From: an uncultured Burkholderiales bacterium
GTDB taxonomy: Bacteria > Pseudomonadota > Gammaproteobacteria > Burkholderiales > Burkholderiaceae_C
NCBI GenBank assembly: GCA_903886485.1
Contig: CAISMH010000017.1
Coordinates: 62,001-126,000 of the forward strand
Direction of reading: 5' to 3'
DNA: 64,000 bases
The notes under the pieces are model-generated. The model did no database searches, had not been told where the DNA came from, and was given only the letters and a program-made list of their open reading frames with translations. A program made the translations under genes and the position numbers. This document shows positions 21,261 to 28,297 of this stretch, piece after piece (the stretch's first letter is position 1; each line of letters starts with the position of its first letter).

Positions 21261-21590
21261 ATGACCGATCTCGAATTCTTAGACCGCGCAGAACTTCTGC
21301 TCAAAGCCGTTGAATTGGCCTGTGACCGCATCAACGACGACGGTGAGGCCGACATCGACAACCAGCGCGTGGGCGGCATGATCACGCTGACGTTTGAGAA
21401 CCGCAGCCAAATCATCATCAACTTGCAAAAGCCCTTGCATGAGGTGTGGTTGGCCGCGCGTTCAGGCGGCTATCACTTCAAGTTTGATGGTCAGCAATGG
21501 TCGGACACCAAAGGCCAAGGCGAGTTCTTTGACCGCTTGAGCCAAGACGCCAGCACCCAAACGGGGCTGGCGCTTCATTTCACTGCTTGA
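21261..21590 (+). CDS. cyaY: Iron donor protein CyaY (frataxin)
   Basis: 109 residues, standard bacterial frataxin length. An acidic N-terminal helix ([30 protein letters not shown]) is followed by the beta sheet with [34 protein letters not shown] and the C-terminal helix. It binds iron and tunes Fe-S cluster assembly by IscS. The ATG at 21261 fits the family start; an in-frame ATG at 21246 would add five residues. Its 3' end overlaps the PBP1A gene, which runs the other way, by 11 bases. Confidence 0.94.
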
Positions 21591-23958
21591 ACAAATCGAG
21601 AATCTTTTTCTTCTCGTCATTAACTGGCAGTGGTTCGCTGCTGTTGTTGGCGGGGCGGCTCTCCATGCCTAAGCTGCTCACGCCGGCGCCTTTGCTGAAC
21701 TCGACGTAGGCCCAATCGCCGCCTTCGTGGCTCAGGCCAGCGGGGGGCACGGGTTCGGCAATCGGAACGTTTTGCAGGGCGTGCTGCATGTAGCTGATCC
21801 ACACAGGCAAGCTCAAACCACCGCCGGTTTCTCGATCCCCTAATTTACGCGGTGTGTCATAACCAATCCAAGTCACGGCGGTGAGTGTGGGCTGGAAGCC
21901 TGCAAACCAAGCGTCCATCGAGTCGTTGGTCGTACCTGTTTTGCCATAGATGTCGGGTCGTTTGAGGGTGGCTTGCGCGCGCGCGGCGGTGCCGGAGCGA
22001 GTCACTTCTTGCAACAGGCTGGTCATCACAAACGCATTGCGTGCGTCAATGGCACGCGCAGACTCATCCAAGGGCGGCGGTGTGAACTCGGACAAGGTTT
22101 TGCCCATTTGGTCCGTCACCTTGGTGATGAGGAAGGGGTTCACACGGTAGCCACCGTTGGCGAACACCGAATAACCTGCCGCCATTTGCATGGGCGTGAC
22201 CGATCCAGCGCCCAAAGCCATGGTCAGGTAAGGCGGGTGCTTTTCAGCATCAAAGCCAAACTGGGCAATCCAGTCTTGTGCGTTTTGTGCGCCCACAGCT
22301 TGCAACACGCGAATCGAAATCATGTTTTTCGATTTGGCCAAACCTTTGCGCAAAGTCATGGGGCCTTCAAAGCCACCGTCGTAGTTTTTGGGCTCCCAAG
22401 GCTGACCACCGGTGACGCTGGCGTCAAAGAACAGGGGGGCATCGTTGACCACGGTCATGGGCGTGAAGCCTTTTTCCAGCGCGGCTGAATAGATGAAAGG
22501 CTTGAAGCTCGAGCCGGGTTGACGCCATGCTTGGGTCACATGGTTGAACTTGTTTTTGTTGAAGTCAAAGCCCCCAACCAAAGCGTGAATCGCACCGTCG
22601 CGTGGGTCGATGGACACAAACGCGCCTTCGACTTCTGGCAGTTGGGTGATCTCCCAAGCGCCTTTGGCATTCGTGGTGACACGAATCAAAGCGCCGGGGC
22701 GCAGCTTGATGTTGGGTGCGGCTTTGTCTGACAAGCCCGATTGCACGGGTTGCAGACCCTCGCCTGTGATCTCCAGCACCTCGCTGTTTTGGCGCATGGC
22801 GCGCACTTTTTTAGGCGTTGCCTCCAGCACCACGGCGGCCAGCAAATCACCTTTGTCGCCTTGCTCGATCAAGGCGTCGTCGATCGCGTCTTCGAGTTCA
22901 GAAGGCTTCGTGGGCAGATTGATGAAACGCTCTGGTCCACGGTAGTGTTGGCGACGCTCATAGTCCATGATGCCGCGACGCAGCGCAAAGTAGGCGGCTT
23001 GTTGGTCGCTGGCGCGAACGGTGGTGTAGACGTTCAGGCCACGCGTGTAAATCTCGGCGCCGTATTGCGCAAACATCAGCTGACGGGCCATCTCAGCCAC
23101 ATAGTCCGCATGCGTGTTGAGGCTGCTCATGGCGGTGCGAATCTTCAACTCTTCTTGCTTGGCGGCGGCGGCTTGTTCTTTGGTGATGAAGCCGTTTTCT
23201 TCCATGCGCTCAATGATGTAGAGCTGGCGCGCGCGGGCTCGCTTGGGGTTGGCAATCGGGTTGTAGGCCGAGGGGGCTTTGGGTAAACCAGCCAACATCG
23301 CCGCTTCGGCAATGCTGATGTTTTTCAGCGGCTTGCCAAAGTAGGCCTCAGAAGCAGCGGCAAATCCGTAAGCGCGATTGCCCAAATAAATTTGGTTCAG
23401 ATAGATTTCAAAAATCTGGTCTTTGCTGAGCATGTGCTCGAGCTTGCTGGTCAGCAAGATTTCGTAAATCTTGCGGGTGAAGGTTTTTTCAGACGACAGG
23501 TACACATTGCGTGCCACCTGCATGGTGATGGTGGACGCGCCTTGGCTCTTGGCGCGGCCCAAGTTGGCCAAGCTGGCACGCAACAAGCCGATGTAGTCAA
23601 CGCCGCCGTGTTGGTAAAAGCGTGCGTCTTCAATGGCCAGCACCGCGTCCTTCATCACTTTGGGAATGTCTTTGAAGGGCGTGAGGTTGCGGCGCTCTTC
23701 GCCGAACTCGCCAATTTGTGTGCCTTCAGCCGAGTACACCCGCATCGAGAGCTTGGGGCGGTAGTCGGCGAGGTCCGAAATGTCTGGCAACTGCGGGTAA
23801 GCCATGGCCAACGCCACGGCGACCAAGAGGCCCAAGATGAGCATGCCAGTTGCAGCAAGCCCAAAGGCCCACAACAAAAGCTTTCCCGCCATGGAGCGTG
23901 GGGCTGTCGAGGCAGCAGCGTGTTCTTTCGAACCTTCGGGGGTGGGGTTGGTCGCCAT
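21580..23958 (-). CDS. mrcA: Penicillin-binding protein 1A (bifunctional transglycosylase/transpeptidase)
   Basis: 792 residues. A cytoplasmic tail and one transmembrane helix ([27 protein letters not shown]) precede the glycosyltransferase domain with catalytic Glu in [14 protein letters not shown] and [12 protein letters not shown]. Next come an OB-like insert and the transpeptidase domain with SSFK (serine nucleophile), SKN and KTGTT motifs. It polymerises and cross-links peptidoglycan in the periplasm. The frame stays open 42 codons upstream; the ATG at 23958 fits family length. It is divergent from the pil operon, the same neighbour pair found in Pseudomonas and Neisseria, which helps identify the next three genes. 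Confidence 0.96.
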
Positions 23959-24082: not shown

Positions 24083-25279
24083 ATGCCTTGGAGATCCCGC
24101 TTGTCGCGTGCGCAGCCGCTTCAACTCAGTGTGGTGGGCTTGGACTTGAGCCCACCAGCTTGCTGCTTGGTGGTGCTGTCGGGCTCCCACACGCAAGCGC
24201 AGCGTGTGTATTGCGAGGAGAACTTGCGTGTGCCAGCGGGTTGGGTGGCACAGGGCAACGTGCTGCAGCCAGAGGCCTTGGGTGAATGGCTCGGTGCTTG
24301 TGTGAAAGCGGCGGGTCATGCCGCCACGGCTGTGTACATGGGACTAGACGACGCATGTGTCTCGACTCACCGCATCACTTTGGCGGCTGGCTTATCGCCA
24401 GAAGATGTGGCGTTTCAATTGCATGCCGAGATGGCGGCCATGCAGCCGCAAGACGCGGAGGTCTGTATCGACTACTGCTTGGATGCCGCGCTTGCACCGG
24501 AAGGTGAGCAAGGTTATCTGGTGCAAGTGGCCCCCCGTGCGCGTGTGGATGCCTTGCAGCGCGTGGCCCAGGCCGCGGGGTGGCGTGCAGGTTCGGTGGA
24601 GCCTCGTGCGGAGGCGCTCCCGCGCGCGCAGCTGGGCCACGTTTTGGTGAACGTGTCGCCATCAGGGGTAAGCGACACAGGGCGGTGTGATGCGGCCTTG
24701 GGCTTGGCCCTGTGTGCGTGGCATGGGCACGGGGTGAACTTCTTGCCCTACCGCGACGAGGCACAGCAAGTGCTGCGTCGTGCTTGTTTCGTCAGGTGTG
24801 CACGATTTGCGTGGGGTGGTGTCATGGCCGCGGCCTGCTTGGCACTGACCCTGTCATGGCTGGCGCAACGCCAAACCCAACAGTTGGGGGACATGGCCGC
24901 ACTCACGGATGCCGCTGCACAAGCGCAAAAAGAACATGCCCATGCACAGGCCATGCAGCAGCGCCACGCCGCGCAAACGCAATGGCTCAAAACACGTCAA
25001 ACCGTGCAAGCGCAAACTTTGCAGTGGAGTGATGTTCTCAGCCATGCCGCACACGGCGTGTGGGTGGCCCATGTGACGCAGCAAGGCGCGCATTGGTCGG
25101 TGCAGGGTGAGGCCTTGTCCTCCGCCCATGTGCAGCAATTGGTGCAACAACTCAAGTCCCTTGATATTTGGGCGCAAGCCCCCGCGTTGCCGCAGCTTCA
25201 ACGCTTGCCCGCTGTGTCCAGCACAGGCTTGCCCGTTTGGCAATTTCGCATAGACGCTGATTTGACGCAGGCCCCCTGA
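24083..25279 (+). CDS. PilM-PilN fusion protein of a type IV pilus/competence assembly complex
   Basis: 398 residues in one frame. Residues about 15-212 resemble the N-terminal half of PilM: an actin-like start (VVGLDLSPPACCLVVLS), AAGLSPEDVAFQLHAEMA and VDALQRVAQAAGWRAGSVEPRAEAL. It then jumps to a short ALGLAL segment like the PilM C-terminus, so the middle ATP-binding half is missing. At residue 218 a PilN begins: VNFLPYRDEAQQ (the INLLPYRE peptide of PilN), one transmembrane helix (about 241-258), a coiled coil (260-300) and the periplasmic ferredoxin-like domain. Canonical PilM and PilN are separate genes of about 355 and 200 residues. Start ATG at 24083 has GAAAGGA upstream. An internal GTG at 24734 is exactly where a free PilN would start. 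Family assignment is from motifs and synteny. Confidence 0.82.
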   Translation: MPWRSRLSRAQPLQLSVVGLDLSPPACCLVVLSGSHTQAQRVYCEENLRVPAGWVAQGNVLQPEALGEWLGACVKAAGHAATAVYMGLDDACVSTHRITLAAGLSPEDVAFQLHAEMAAMQPQDAEVCIDYCLDAALAPEGEQGYLVQVAPRARVDALQRVAQAAGWRAGSVEPRAEALPRAQLGHVLVNVSPSGVSDTGRCDAALGLALCAWHGHGVNFLPYRDEAQQVLRRACFVRCARFAWGGVMAAACLALTLSWLAQRQTQQLGDMAALTDAAAQAQKEHAHAQAMQQRHAAQTQWLKTRQTVQAQTLQWSDVLSHAAHGVWVAHVTQQGAHWSVQGEALSSAHVQQLVQQLKSLDIWAQAPALPQLQRLPAVSSTGLPVWQFRIDADLTQAP

Positions 25280-26235
25280 TGAATTGGCGTCAACCTTGGA
25301 CTTGGCCTAGCGCCTACCAACACGCCCTCCATGCGAGTGCGGCCCTTGTGGGCGTGTGCTTGTTAAGCCCTTGGTGGCTCTCGCGCTGGCAAGCGTGGGA
25401 CATGGCCAACACCGCACACGACGAGCAGCTTGCATTGCAACAAACCACGCAAGCGTTGCGCGCGCAAACCGCACACTGGATGAAGCAGTCGCCTGAAGCA
25501 CTGCCCCTGTTTGCCGATGTTGCAGCGCTCACCACACGGGCGCACCAGCAAGGTTTGCAGCTGTCCCACTGGGAGGTCGAGTCCGTGCCCAACCCCGCAT
25601 GGCAAGCCCTGCAGCTGCAACAACTGTCCGTGCATGTGAAAGCGCAGGGCTCTTGGGATACGTGGCGTCATTGGTTGGCGCAGTGGCCCACTTCAGCGCC
25701 CGGTGTGACACTGTCATCCCTCACGCTCAAAGCTGACCCGCATGCTGGCGTCGCAGCCGATTTGGTGGTCACCGCCCCTCAAGTCATGGCGACCGACCCT
25801 TTGCATGCGCTGGCGCGTGCGGGCTTCAATGACCTCGCCCCCGCCGATCCCTTCAACGCCCAAAGTTGGACCCGTACCCAACACGCCCATGCCGCGCAAC
25901 ACCCCAGCTATGCACGATGGGTGGCGCCAGAGCTCGCGCGGCCACGCGAGCCCCTCGAGGGCTTTGCGCGCGAGCGTTTGCAATACGTGGGTCACATGGA
26001 GGCGGGCGCCGAGAGGGAAGCTTTGGTCCAGGTGTTGCCTGCAGCAGGGGCGAAAAAAGACGAGTCGATGATGCGTGTGTACCGCCTGCGCGTGAACGGC
26101 TATTTGGGCCACAACTTTGGCCGACTGCTGGCCATTGCCCCTGACCACTTGCGGGTGCAAGAGTTGGTGTGGATGCCCACCGGCGAGTGGCAACCCCGCG
26201 AGCTGCGTTTGCCTTTGCAGGAGACATCGCCATGA
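25279..26235 (+). CDS. PilO-PilP fusion protein of a type IV pilus/competence assembly complex
   Basis: 318 residues. Residues 14-36 form one transmembrane helix, followed by a coiled-coil and a PilO-like periplasmic domain to about 170, then a linker. Residues about 217-314 are a clear PilP: PELARPREPLEGFARERLQ, then VYRLRVNGYLGHNFGRLLAI and a final GEWQPRELRLPLQE. In most bacteria PilP is a separate inner-membrane lipoprotein that links PilNO to the PilQ secretin. Here the lipobox is absent and the PilO helix replaces the lipid anchor. Start and the preceding stop overlap as TGATG, so translation is coupled to the PilMN fusion. The PilO part is assigned mostly by position and layout. Confidence 0.82.
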   Translation: MNWRQPWTWPSAYQHALHASAALVGVCLLSPWWLSRWQAWDMANTAHDEQLALQQTTQALRAQTAHWMKQSPEALPLFADVAALTTRAHQQGLQLSHWEVESVPNPAWQALQLQQLSVHVKAQGSWDTWRHWLAQWPTSAPGVTLSSLTLKADPHAGVAADLVVTAPQVMATDPLHALARAGFNDLAPADPFNAQSWTRTQHAHAAQHPSYARWVAPELARPREPLEGFARERLQYVGHMEAGAEREALVQVLPAAGAKKDESMMRVYRLRVNGYLGHNFGRLLAIAPDHLRVQELVWMPTGEWQPRELRLPLQETSP

Positions 26236-27713
26236 TGCGTCGCGTGTCTATCAAACCGCGCTTGCGGTGCTGGGCTTGGCTGGTGGTTTGCCATAGCGTG
26301 TGTGCATTGCCGCTTCACAGCCAAGAGCTCAAGCCTGTGTACACCGGAGCGCCCATGTCGTTGAGCTTTCAGCACATCGAGGTGCGTACCGCCCTACAAA
26401 TCATCGCGGACTTCACGGGCTTGAACCTCATCGCCTCAGACAGCGTGACCGGCTCGCTCACCCTCAAACTGCACAAAGTGCCGTGGGACCAAGTGCTGGA
26501 CATCATGGCGCAGTCCAAGGGCTTGAGTGTTCGCAAGCAAGGCAACGTCGTGTGGGTGGCTCCGCGTGCCGAAGTCGCGGCACGAGAAAAACTTGAATAC
26601 GAAAGCACGTTGGCGGCACAGAATTTAGAGCCCATGCAAACCCGCAGCTTTGTCCTCAACTACGCCAAAGCGCAAGAGGTGGTCGCACACATCCAAGGTG
26701 GCGCGGTGATGTCGGCCCCGCCGCCCCTGTCTGGTTGGGGAGGCTACGGCAGCGGGTGGAGCGGTATGGGCTTGCCTGCGGGTGGCACGCGCGTCCTCAG
26801 CCCACGCGGCAGTGCCATGGCCGAGCCGCGTACCAATCAGATTTTTGTCACGGACATTGCCGAGCGCCTCACGCAAGTGACGCAGATGATTGCCAAGATC
26901 GACATTCCGTTGCGTCAAGTGATGATTGAGGCGCGCATCGTGCAAGCCAGTGACACCTTTGGCCAAACGCTGGGTGTGCGCTTGGGTGGCTTGGGGCAGG
27001 GCGGTGCGCAAACCGTGTGGGGGCCGACCAATGCCAACGTCATCGCCAATGCCAACCCAACGGCGCAGCAAGGCACTAGCTTCAACACGGCCAACAAAGC
27101 GCTCGACACCTCGGGCAGCTTCGTCAATCTGCCCGCTGCCAGTCTGAACGGGTTTGCCTCGGCCAGCTTTGCGGTGTCCATCTTCAACTCGGCCAAGAAC
27201 CAATTTCTCAACTTGGAGCTGTCGGCCTTAGAAGCCGATGGTCAAGGCAAAGTGGTGTCCAGCCCGCGCGTGGTGACCGCAGACCAGGGCAAGGCCGTCA
27301 TTGAGCAGGGCACCGAACTGCCTTACCAAGTCGCCGCGGCCAGCGGGGCGACGAGCTTGGCCTTTCGCAAAGCCAACCTCAAGCTGGAGGTCACACCGCA
27401 AATCACGCCCGAGGGCGCCATCGTGTTGGATTTGGATATCTCCAAGGACAGCGTGGGCCAAACCACACCGGCAGGTTTTGCCATCGACACCAAGCACATC
27501 AAGACGCAAGTGCTGGTGGAAAACGGTGGCACGGTGATGATTGGCGGCATTTACGAAAGCACGGAGCAAGCGGATGACTACAAAGTGCCGCTCTTGGGGG
27601 ACATCCCCGTGCTTGGTTATTTGTTCAAAAACCATCGCCGAGCACAAGCCAAGCAAGAGCTGCTGGTGTTCATAACCCCTAAAATGCTCGATCACAGTGC
27701 CCCTGCACGTTAA
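26232..27713 (+). CDS. PilQ/HofQ-like secretin without AMIN domains
   Basis: 493 residues. A signal peptide (about residues 1-30) leads to a secretin/TonB short N-terminal domain (MSLSFQHIEVRTALQIIADFTGLNLIAS, KVPWDQVLDIMAQSKGLSVR), a secretin N1 domain with a Gly/Ser-rich loop, and the secretin core with RQVMIEARIVQAS, VVSSPRVVTADQGKAVIEQGTELPY, VTPQITPEGAIVLDLDISKDS and VPLLGDIPVLGYLFK. It would form the outer-membrane gate of a type IV pilus or DNA-uptake pilus. Usual PilQ proteins have about 700 residues with one or two AMIN domains that bind peptidoglycan; these are missing, as in HofQ/ComE. ATG at 26232 overlaps the previous stop. Confidence 0.9.
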   Translation: MMRRVSIKPRLRCWAWLVVCHSVCALPLHSQELKPVYTGAPMSLSFQHIEVRTALQIIADFTGLNLIASDSVTGSLTLKLHKVPWDQVLDIMAQSKGLSVRKQGNVVWVAPRAEVAAREKLEYESTLAAQNLEPMQTRSFVLNYAKAQEVVAHIQGGAVMSAPPPLSGWGGYGSGWSGMGLPAGGTRVLSPRGSAMAEPRTNQIFVTDIAERLTQVTQMIAKIDIPLRQVMIEARIVQASDTFGQTLGVRLGGLGQGGAQTVWGPTNANVIANANPTAQQGTSFNTANKALDTSGSFVNLPAASLNGFASASFAVSIFNSAKNQFLNLELSALEADGQGKVVSSPRVVTADQGKAVIEQGTELPYQVAAASGATSLAFRKANLKLEVTPQITPEGAIVLDLDISKDSVGQTTPAGFAIDTKHIKTQVLVENGGTVMIGGIYESTEQADDYKVPLLGDIPVLGYLFKNHRRAQAKQELLVFITPKMLDHSAPAR

Positions 27714-27721
27714 GAAAGCAT

Positions 27722-28297
27722 ATGTTGTTGGTTTTGGTGGGTCTGCCGGGTTCCGGCAAAACAACCGTTGGGCGTCAACTCGCTCGGCGTCTTCACCTCC
27801 CCTTTGTGGATTCGGATCACGCGATTGAAAACCGCCTAGGTTGTTCGGTGCGCGAGTATTTCGAACGCGAAGGGGAAGACCGCTTTCGCGATCTCGAATC
27901 TGATGTGCTGGCCGATCTGTGTCAAAACCACCAAGGCGTGTTGTCTACCGGTGGCGGCTCGGTGTTGCGTCCGATCAACCGCGAACGTTTGCATCGACAC
28001 GGCCATGTGTTTTACCTGCGCTCGAGCCCTGAAGAAGTGTTTCGCCGTTTGCGAAACGATCAAAACCGGCCCTTGTTGCAAGTGTCTGATCCGCAAGCGC
28101 GTTTGCGCGAATTGATGGACAAGCGTGACCCGCTCTACCGCGAGACCGCGCATTACGTGATTGAGACGGGACGCCCCAACGTGGCAGGCTTGGTCAACAT
28201 GATCGTGGCGCAGCTCGAACTCGCAGGCCACATCCAACCCGTTCAGCCTGCATCGCCCACGGACCGCCCTCGCGTCTCGCCCCCACACAGAAACTGA
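27722..28297 (+). CDS. aroK: Shikimate kinase
   Basis: 191 residues. The P-loop is GLPGSGKTTVGRQLA near the N-terminus. The shikimate-binding aspartate is in VDSDHAIENRLG, with GGGSVLRPINRERL as the central conserved block and the lid arginine in DQNRPLL. It phosphorylates shikimate in the aromatic amino acid pathway. It starts eight bases after the secretin stop and is followed by aroB after three bases; the pilQ-aroK-aroB order is widely conserved in beta- and gammaproteobacteria. The C-terminus has a short Pro-rich tail. Confidence 0.95.
   Translation: MLLVLVGLPGSGKTTVGRQLARRLHLPFVDSDHAIENRLGCSVREYFEREGEDRFRDLESDVLADLCQNHQGVLSTGGGSVLRPINRERLHRHGHVFYLRSSPEEVFRRLRNDQNRPLLQVSDPQARLRELMDKRDPLYRETAHYVIETGRPNVAGLVNMIVAQLELAGHIQPVQPASPTDRPRVSPPHRN

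Follow-up and report, generated by a model that had tools for sequence, protein, structure and literature searches.

Among the known systems closest to the protein reported here are PulL/GspL, which unites PilM and PilN in one chain (PMC10191384; a 'natural genetic fusion' in PMC6325625), and BfpC of the bundle-forming pilus, in which a fold like that of PilM and GspL makes up the N-terminal part of a single membrane protein (PMC4471445). In the canonical type IVa machine a dodecameric PilM-PilN ring has been described (cited in PMC8389850), and the N-terminal domain of PilB is expected to contact PilM (PMC8389850, PMC11656802). A literature search that covered few subscription journals returned no report of a PilM-PilN fusion in a type IVa system.

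We analyzed a 64,000-nucleotide stretch (the window) from an uncultured Burkholderiales bacterium of the freshwater genus Limnohabitans (contig CAISMH010000017.1, positions 62,001 to 126,000), for which an original prediction had proposed an in-frame fusion of a truncated PilM to PilN. Since PilM+PilN fusion is already known from GspL/PulL, the fusion as such is not new; it is a convergent new variant of this known kind, in a type IVa system, and rather than an isolated oddity it is one step of a genus-wide reduction. The changed stoichiometry that had been expected is not implied either, because canonical PilM and PilN are modelled as equimolar.

The fused gene and the reduced pilus machine

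The gene order in the window is ponA (reverse strand), pilM-N, pilO-P, pilQ, aroK and aroB. The relevant features, in window coordinates unless a separate locus is named, are as follows.

21580..23958 (-): ponA/mrcA, conserved flank and species-tree gene
24083..25279 (+): pilMN, PilM lacking domain 2 joined to PilN, 398 aa (open frame, Pfam, profile comparison)
24122..24616 (+): retained PilM lobe, residues 14-178, subdomains 1A/1C (Pfam PilM_2 1-152/340; AlphaFold2 model aligns to 5EOU and 2YCH)
24617..24679 (+): internal deletion site, residues 179-199, replacing about 150 residues of the ATP-binding PilM domain 2
24680..24724 (+): retained last PilM helix, residues 200-214, ..LGLALCAW (aligned to the PilM end in 5EOU)
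24734..24754 (+): PilN docking peptide VNFLPYR, residues 218-224; V218 is the GTG proposed as an internal start
24806..24865 (+): PilN transmembrane segment, about residues 242-261 (from the sequence; a long helix of low confidence in the model)
25055..25267 (+): PilN periplasmic ferredoxin-like domain, about residues 325-395 (Pfam PilN)
25279..26235 (+): pilOP, PilO fused to PilP, 318 aa (Pfam, profile, structure)
26235..27713 (+): pilQ, secretin without AMIN (TIGR02515, E 3e-144)
27722..28297 (+): aroK, conserved flank
L098 10475-11707 (-), genome contig C17: pilB, N-terminal ND0/ND1 domain wholly missing
L172 5172-8004: minor-pilin cluster fimT-pilV-W-X-E

Both halves of the fusion match their families, as the original prediction had it. 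Pfam PilM_2 aligns to residues 19-169 (profile positions 1-152 of 340, E 9e-10) and Pfam PilN to residues 325-393 (E 2e-5), both above the cut-off; in profile-profile comparisons the fusion family matched full-length PilM of five other genera over residues 16-195 (6.6e-12) and PilN of the bacterial family from residue 218 onwards (1.6e-11). The NCBIfam PilM model gave only 35.6 bits against a cut-off of 133, and annotation pipelines would thus not name the fusion PilM. It is nevertheless the sole clear PilM of its genome (2.49 Mb, 100% complete), the remaining matches being weaker and confined to the part of the profile common to actin-fold proteins. Of the hallmarks of PilM it has the actin-like 1A/1C fold and the pilM-N-O-P-Q order beside ponA and aroK, and it lacks domain 2 (2A/2B), the nucleotide site with its lysine and the status of a separate cytoplasmic protein. 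The PilN hallmarks are all present, namely the (I/V)N(L/F)LPxR cytoplasmic peptide, the single membrane helix and the ferredoxin-like periplasmic domain. A promoter scan upstream of pilMN found none.

When the fusion is aligned with full-length PilM from five other genera, the missing block of domain 2 falls inside the protein, with the last helix (..GLAL..W) kept, and the short unfused PilM proteins of sister species keep this helix too. The original prediction was hence right that the N-terminal lobe of PilM is retained and the ATPase-like part lost; the C-terminal truncation it described is instead an internal deletion. PilM domain 2 is absent from the fusion and the nucleotide site with it; the ATP-contacting lysine, too, is replaced in all 20 of the 20 fusions compared, by C, S, H, R, W or D. 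Such a loss is tolerable, because the K26A PilM of Thermus, in which ATP binding is abolished, still binds and stimulates PilF (PMC6325625).

Just downstream of the helix, after a linker of 4-5 residues, comes the NFLPYR motif, so that the docking peptide and its dock lie in one chain as had been proposed, the docking itself being predicted. The chain goes on through the PilN membrane helix and a coiled coil to the ferredoxin-like domain. Positions A205, G207, L208, A209, L210 and W213 of the helix are invariant among the fusions, and N219, P222 and R224 of the docking peptide are invariant or nearly so. Mean identity is 0.90 in the helix and 0.89 over N219-R224, against 0.50 in the intervening linker, 0.54 at the deletion site (residues 179-204) and 0.65 overall; helix and docking peptide are thus the best-conserved stretch of the protein, beside a freely drifting linker. 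By contrast, most other fusions have ACT, ATC, GTC, GCC or TTT at the codon of the GTG at 24734, from which free PilN had been suggested to be released. A PilN start within the frame is therefore not conserved, and to judge from these codons free PilN from this site is unlikely.

The predicted structure, which the original prediction had suggested as a check, has a PilM fold. The AlphaFold2 model of the fusion (mean pLDDT 75.8) has its top structural match in 5EOU (Z 20.1; 206 residues at 3.4 A, model residues 15-223 on 5EOU_B 10-366), followed by 2YCH PilM (Z 15.6), FtsA (13.7) and the cytoplasmic part of EpsL, 1yf5 (12.1); the PilN periplasmic domain weakly matches the PulL-PulM domain 8ab1_B in Foldseek (E 0.023). 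The match to 5EOU extends over the position of the docking peptide, which makes in-chain docking geometrically plausible. Because the training set of AlphaFold2 contained PilM structures, 5EOU and 2YCH among them, the model is support for in-chain docking rather than proof, and a single-chain model cannot separate it from a swap between neighbours. 5EOU is itself an engineered Pseudomonas aeruginosa PilM:PilN(1-12) chain joined at the same place as the natural fusion (..GLALRSFDSSG-MARINLLPWREE in 5EOU, ..GLALCAWHGHG-VNFLPYRDE in the fusion). It differs in being man-made, in comprising a full PilM with domain 2 and bound ATP, and in lacking the PilN membrane helix and periplasmic domain, both of which the fusion has.

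Reduction extends to the other components. In the pilOP product, PilP is matched by Pfam (E 3e-17) and PilO by profile comparison (1.7e-6), and its model aligns to PilO 2rjz (Z 11.8, residues 78-170) and PilP 2y4x (Z 13.8, residues 213-313). As one chain with PilO, PilP is tethered by the PilO membrane helix and is not a lipoprotein. This chain receives no NCBIfam name, and together with the low NCBIfam score of the fusion it illustrates that standard annotation can miss such genes. For AMIN, Pfam gave no match in the window's PilQ, while the canonical PilQ of genome G435, used as a control, matched at 5e-38. PilB, whose gene shares the contig of pilMN and belongs to a pilB-C-D-coaE cluster, has 410 aa and is matched by TIGR02538 only at positions 175-563; in eight other Comamonadaceae genera the match is near-complete (from 1-4 to 563-564). 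As PilB frames measure 380-430 aa throughout the genus, the loss of the N-terminal domain is common to fused and unfused species. Reduced PilM and reduced PilB thus go together in Limnohabitans, the link between the two losses being a correlation. PilC, PilD and PilT are present in the genome of the window, and there is no space there for a PilY1 gene between pilX and pilE.

Distribution and evolution within Limnohabitans

A complete fused frame occurs in 22 of the 84 Limnohabitans species, two more being interrupted by contig ends; carriers include the isolates Limnohabitans sp. Jir61, B9-3 and JirII-31, which were recovered with an alignment as query and gave no match with a single protein. 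The other fusions are 30-56% identical to that of the window. Outside the genus there is no fusion among the matches listed for 400 genomes of the family, nor among those listed for 369 genomes of the class, where only the halves served as queries; fast-diverged fusions could escape the cut-offs of these searches. Two long PilM frames (549 aa in G380 and 496 aa in G362), considered as additional fusions, were rejected: each is an ordinary PilM whose frame also runs open further upstream, and pilN is a gene of its own there. Three strongly diverged PilM-PilN fusions, probably independent, were also observed (L077 4050-5018, L081 1171-2694 and L080 3983-5443), with a docking motif that is degenerate or missing (PNLLRRQR, PDLLRDQR). 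G382 has a second PilM-like protein, whose neighbours are a PilB-like ATPase of full length (582 aa) and one more ATPase (C1:295000-312000, L106), in a locus resembling an MSHA-type system.

The sharing of the fused frame by 22 species, isolates included, excludes chance or sequencing error. The original prediction, which proposed a survey of one-gene and two-gene forms, had named a sequencing error as a way in which it could fail; a related reading is a two-gene pilM/pilN with a frameshift that annotation had bridged. Two-gene relatives with overlapping genes do exist within the genus and speak for such a misreading, which has a negligible probability: the genomes sharing the fused frame are independent, their DNA has no stop-start overlap, and on the tree of a flanking gene the fused species group together with support. 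Neither of the outcomes that would have overturned the original prediction was seen. Pairwise dN/dS values of 0.10-0.36 indicate that the fusion is under purifying selection. The protein evolves fast, PilMN being 53-56% identical where PonA is 91-94% identical.

Trait changes were counted on an IQ-TREE phylogeny built from PonA, whose gene flanks the locus; Limnohabitans is one clade on this tree (support 100/100). The loss of domain 2 maps as one change at the base of the genus, and fusion as three changes, that is, 2-3 origins, after the loss. In two-gene relatives pilM and pilN overlap as ATGA/TGA at the very position of the join, so a small change suffices for fusion, which probably arose via loss of this stop-start overlap when domain 2 was already gone. 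Nested in the fused group, a clade of six (100/99) has gone further, to a single-chain PilM-PilN-PilP form of about 303 aa, composed of a PilM 1C remnant, a CFYPTR motif, a membrane helix and PilP, and matching the fusion in profile comparison at 2.4e-10. It is exemplified by

L070 2926-3837 (-): single-chain form, found also in L071, L073 and L074 (genomes G410, G402, G418 and G456)

and between ponA and pilQ these loci contain no gene for PilO or for the PilN periplasmic domain.

Elsewhere the locus has disappeared. The pilMNOPQ genes are cleanly absent, with ponA abutting aroK, in at least 14 genomes (L176, L183-L189, L191-L196), which have lost ComEC as well, and the locus is visibly broken in G408, G442, G406 and G440. 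Remnants consisting of a short PilM-like frame joined to PilQ scraps, with stops, are seen in L096 (1386-1892), L082, L083 and L068. Such broken or degenerate loci in several genomes imply that the system is dying in some sections of the genus. In G435, a genome that is placed in Limnohabitans, a 5-kb contig (contig 157, L064) carries a canonical five-gene pilMNOPQ with an AMIN-bearing PilQ; it may be contamination or an early branch, and because of the former it was kept out of the evidence. Taken together, the genus could tentatively be read, with somewhat less than even confidence, as a natural deletion series, which would lead from the full five-protein base seen in other genera through a domain-2-less PilM with a short PilB to PilMN plus PilOP and finally to the 303-aa chain.

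Function of the single chain

We consider it rather probable that a GspL-like single chain does the work of both PilM and PilN in a reduced type IVa pilus for DNA uptake. The NFLPYR peptide would bend back to lie in the 1A/1C groove of the same chain, and the PilM lobe would therefore be anchored under the membrane permanently and independently of nucleotide. As PilB lacks ND0/ND1, the PilM-PilB contact is presumably gone; PilC would in that case be the main point of action of the motor, and PilMN and PilOP would form a static scaffold leading to PilQ. Selection would keep DNA uptake by a retractable pilus, PilT and ComEC both being present, rather than twitching. Among genomes at least 90% complete, ComEC, which forms the channel for DNA uptake, is present in 28 of the 31 that have the locus and in none of the 13 that lack it (Fisher 1e-8). 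In G442 and G406, two genomes with a broken pil locus, its frame is likewise interrupted by stops; G449, G461 and G435 have the locus and no ComEC. That ComEC tracks the locus suggests a DNA-uptake pilus, and because the locus was lost only 2-3 times independently, the association is to be read as suggestive, with weak phylogeny-aware support. The literature search found no paper on transformation in Limnohabitans. In Thermus, PilF without GSPIIC yields cells without pili or twitching that are hypertransformable (PMC6325625). Removal of the GSPII domains abolishes pili and twitching as well, and the PilF so reduced still binds PilM, which counts against the proposed mechanism (PMC6325625).

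The presence of PilT together with PilB, and the activity of the Thermus K26A protein on PilF (PMC6325625), would suit a pilus that still works in twitching or adhesion, like that of other Comamonadaceae, and that could simply do without domain 2 and ATP binding. We regard this as unlikely, since there is no room for PilY1 between pilX and pilE, PilB lacks its N-terminal domain, pili and twitching in Thermus are abolished when the GSPII domains are removed (PMC6325625), and genomes that have lost the locus have lost ComEC too. The clean loss of the locus between ponA and aroK in many relatives, its breakage in four genomes, the rapid divergence of PilMN relative to PonA and the loss of several domains across the machine could alternatively indicate a system drifting towards loss, with the fusion a by-product of decay that has no working role. 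This is quite improbable in the face of frames kept open under purifying selection in 22 species, of a motif and helix conserved while the linker between them drifts, and of PilB, PilC, PilD, PilT, minor pilins and ComEC that are all intact in the same genome. The reading of the fusion as a working part of a DNA-uptake pilus is the one that we favor.

These observations bear on the purpose of ATP binding by PilM and on how the PilB N-terminal domain is coupled to PilM. The genus dropped the nucleotide site along with the PilB N-domain, and later joined PilM and PilN into one chain in which the docking peptide stayed conserved; as this reduction is found in cultured isolates, the need for a nucleotide switch and the minimal composition of the alignment complex become testable questions. 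If DNA uptake persists in the single-chain end points, a working pilus base could dispense with the nucleotide site of PilM, and neither the contact between PilM and the PilB N-domain nor the periplasmic domains of PilN and PilO would be needed.

Comparison with known systems

In the order of its parts, an actin-like cytoplasmic region, a single membrane helix and a ferredoxin-like periplasmic domain, pilMN resembles GspL. Unlike GspL, it lies within pilMNOPQ, it matches the PilM and PilN families beside a match to PilQ, and in its sister lineages pilM and pilN are still separate; its origin is independent of GspL, and the GspL arrangement has thus evolved convergently in a type IVa pilus. The GspL family has no match on pilMN in Pfam or NCBIfam, and GspD and GspE of the window's genome lie on another contig (C19), with pilMN outside the gsp operon. 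What further sets pilMN apart from GspL is that the docking motif of PilN is retained and domain 2 is entirely absent. GspE keeps an N-terminal domain, unlike the PilB of Limnohabitans. BfpC belongs to a type IVb system and pilMN to a type IVa one.

The Hof system of Escherichia coli, which serves DNA utilization, has the same gene position (mrcA-hofMNOPQ-aroK-aroB) and pairs a reduced HofM, a short PilM homologue of 259 aa, with a reduced HofB, which is matched by PilB only from position 160 with most of the N-terminal domain missing, just as Limnohabitans pairs its reduced PilM and PilB; HofQ is likewise a short secretin (412 aa). Hof differs in having five separate genes and in that HofM keeps part of the region deleted in the fusion. 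Two-gene and full-length relatives within the family link the Limnohabitans genes to the PilM and PilN of Comamonadaceae, and the likeness to Hof is for this reason probably a case of convergence rather than of descent.
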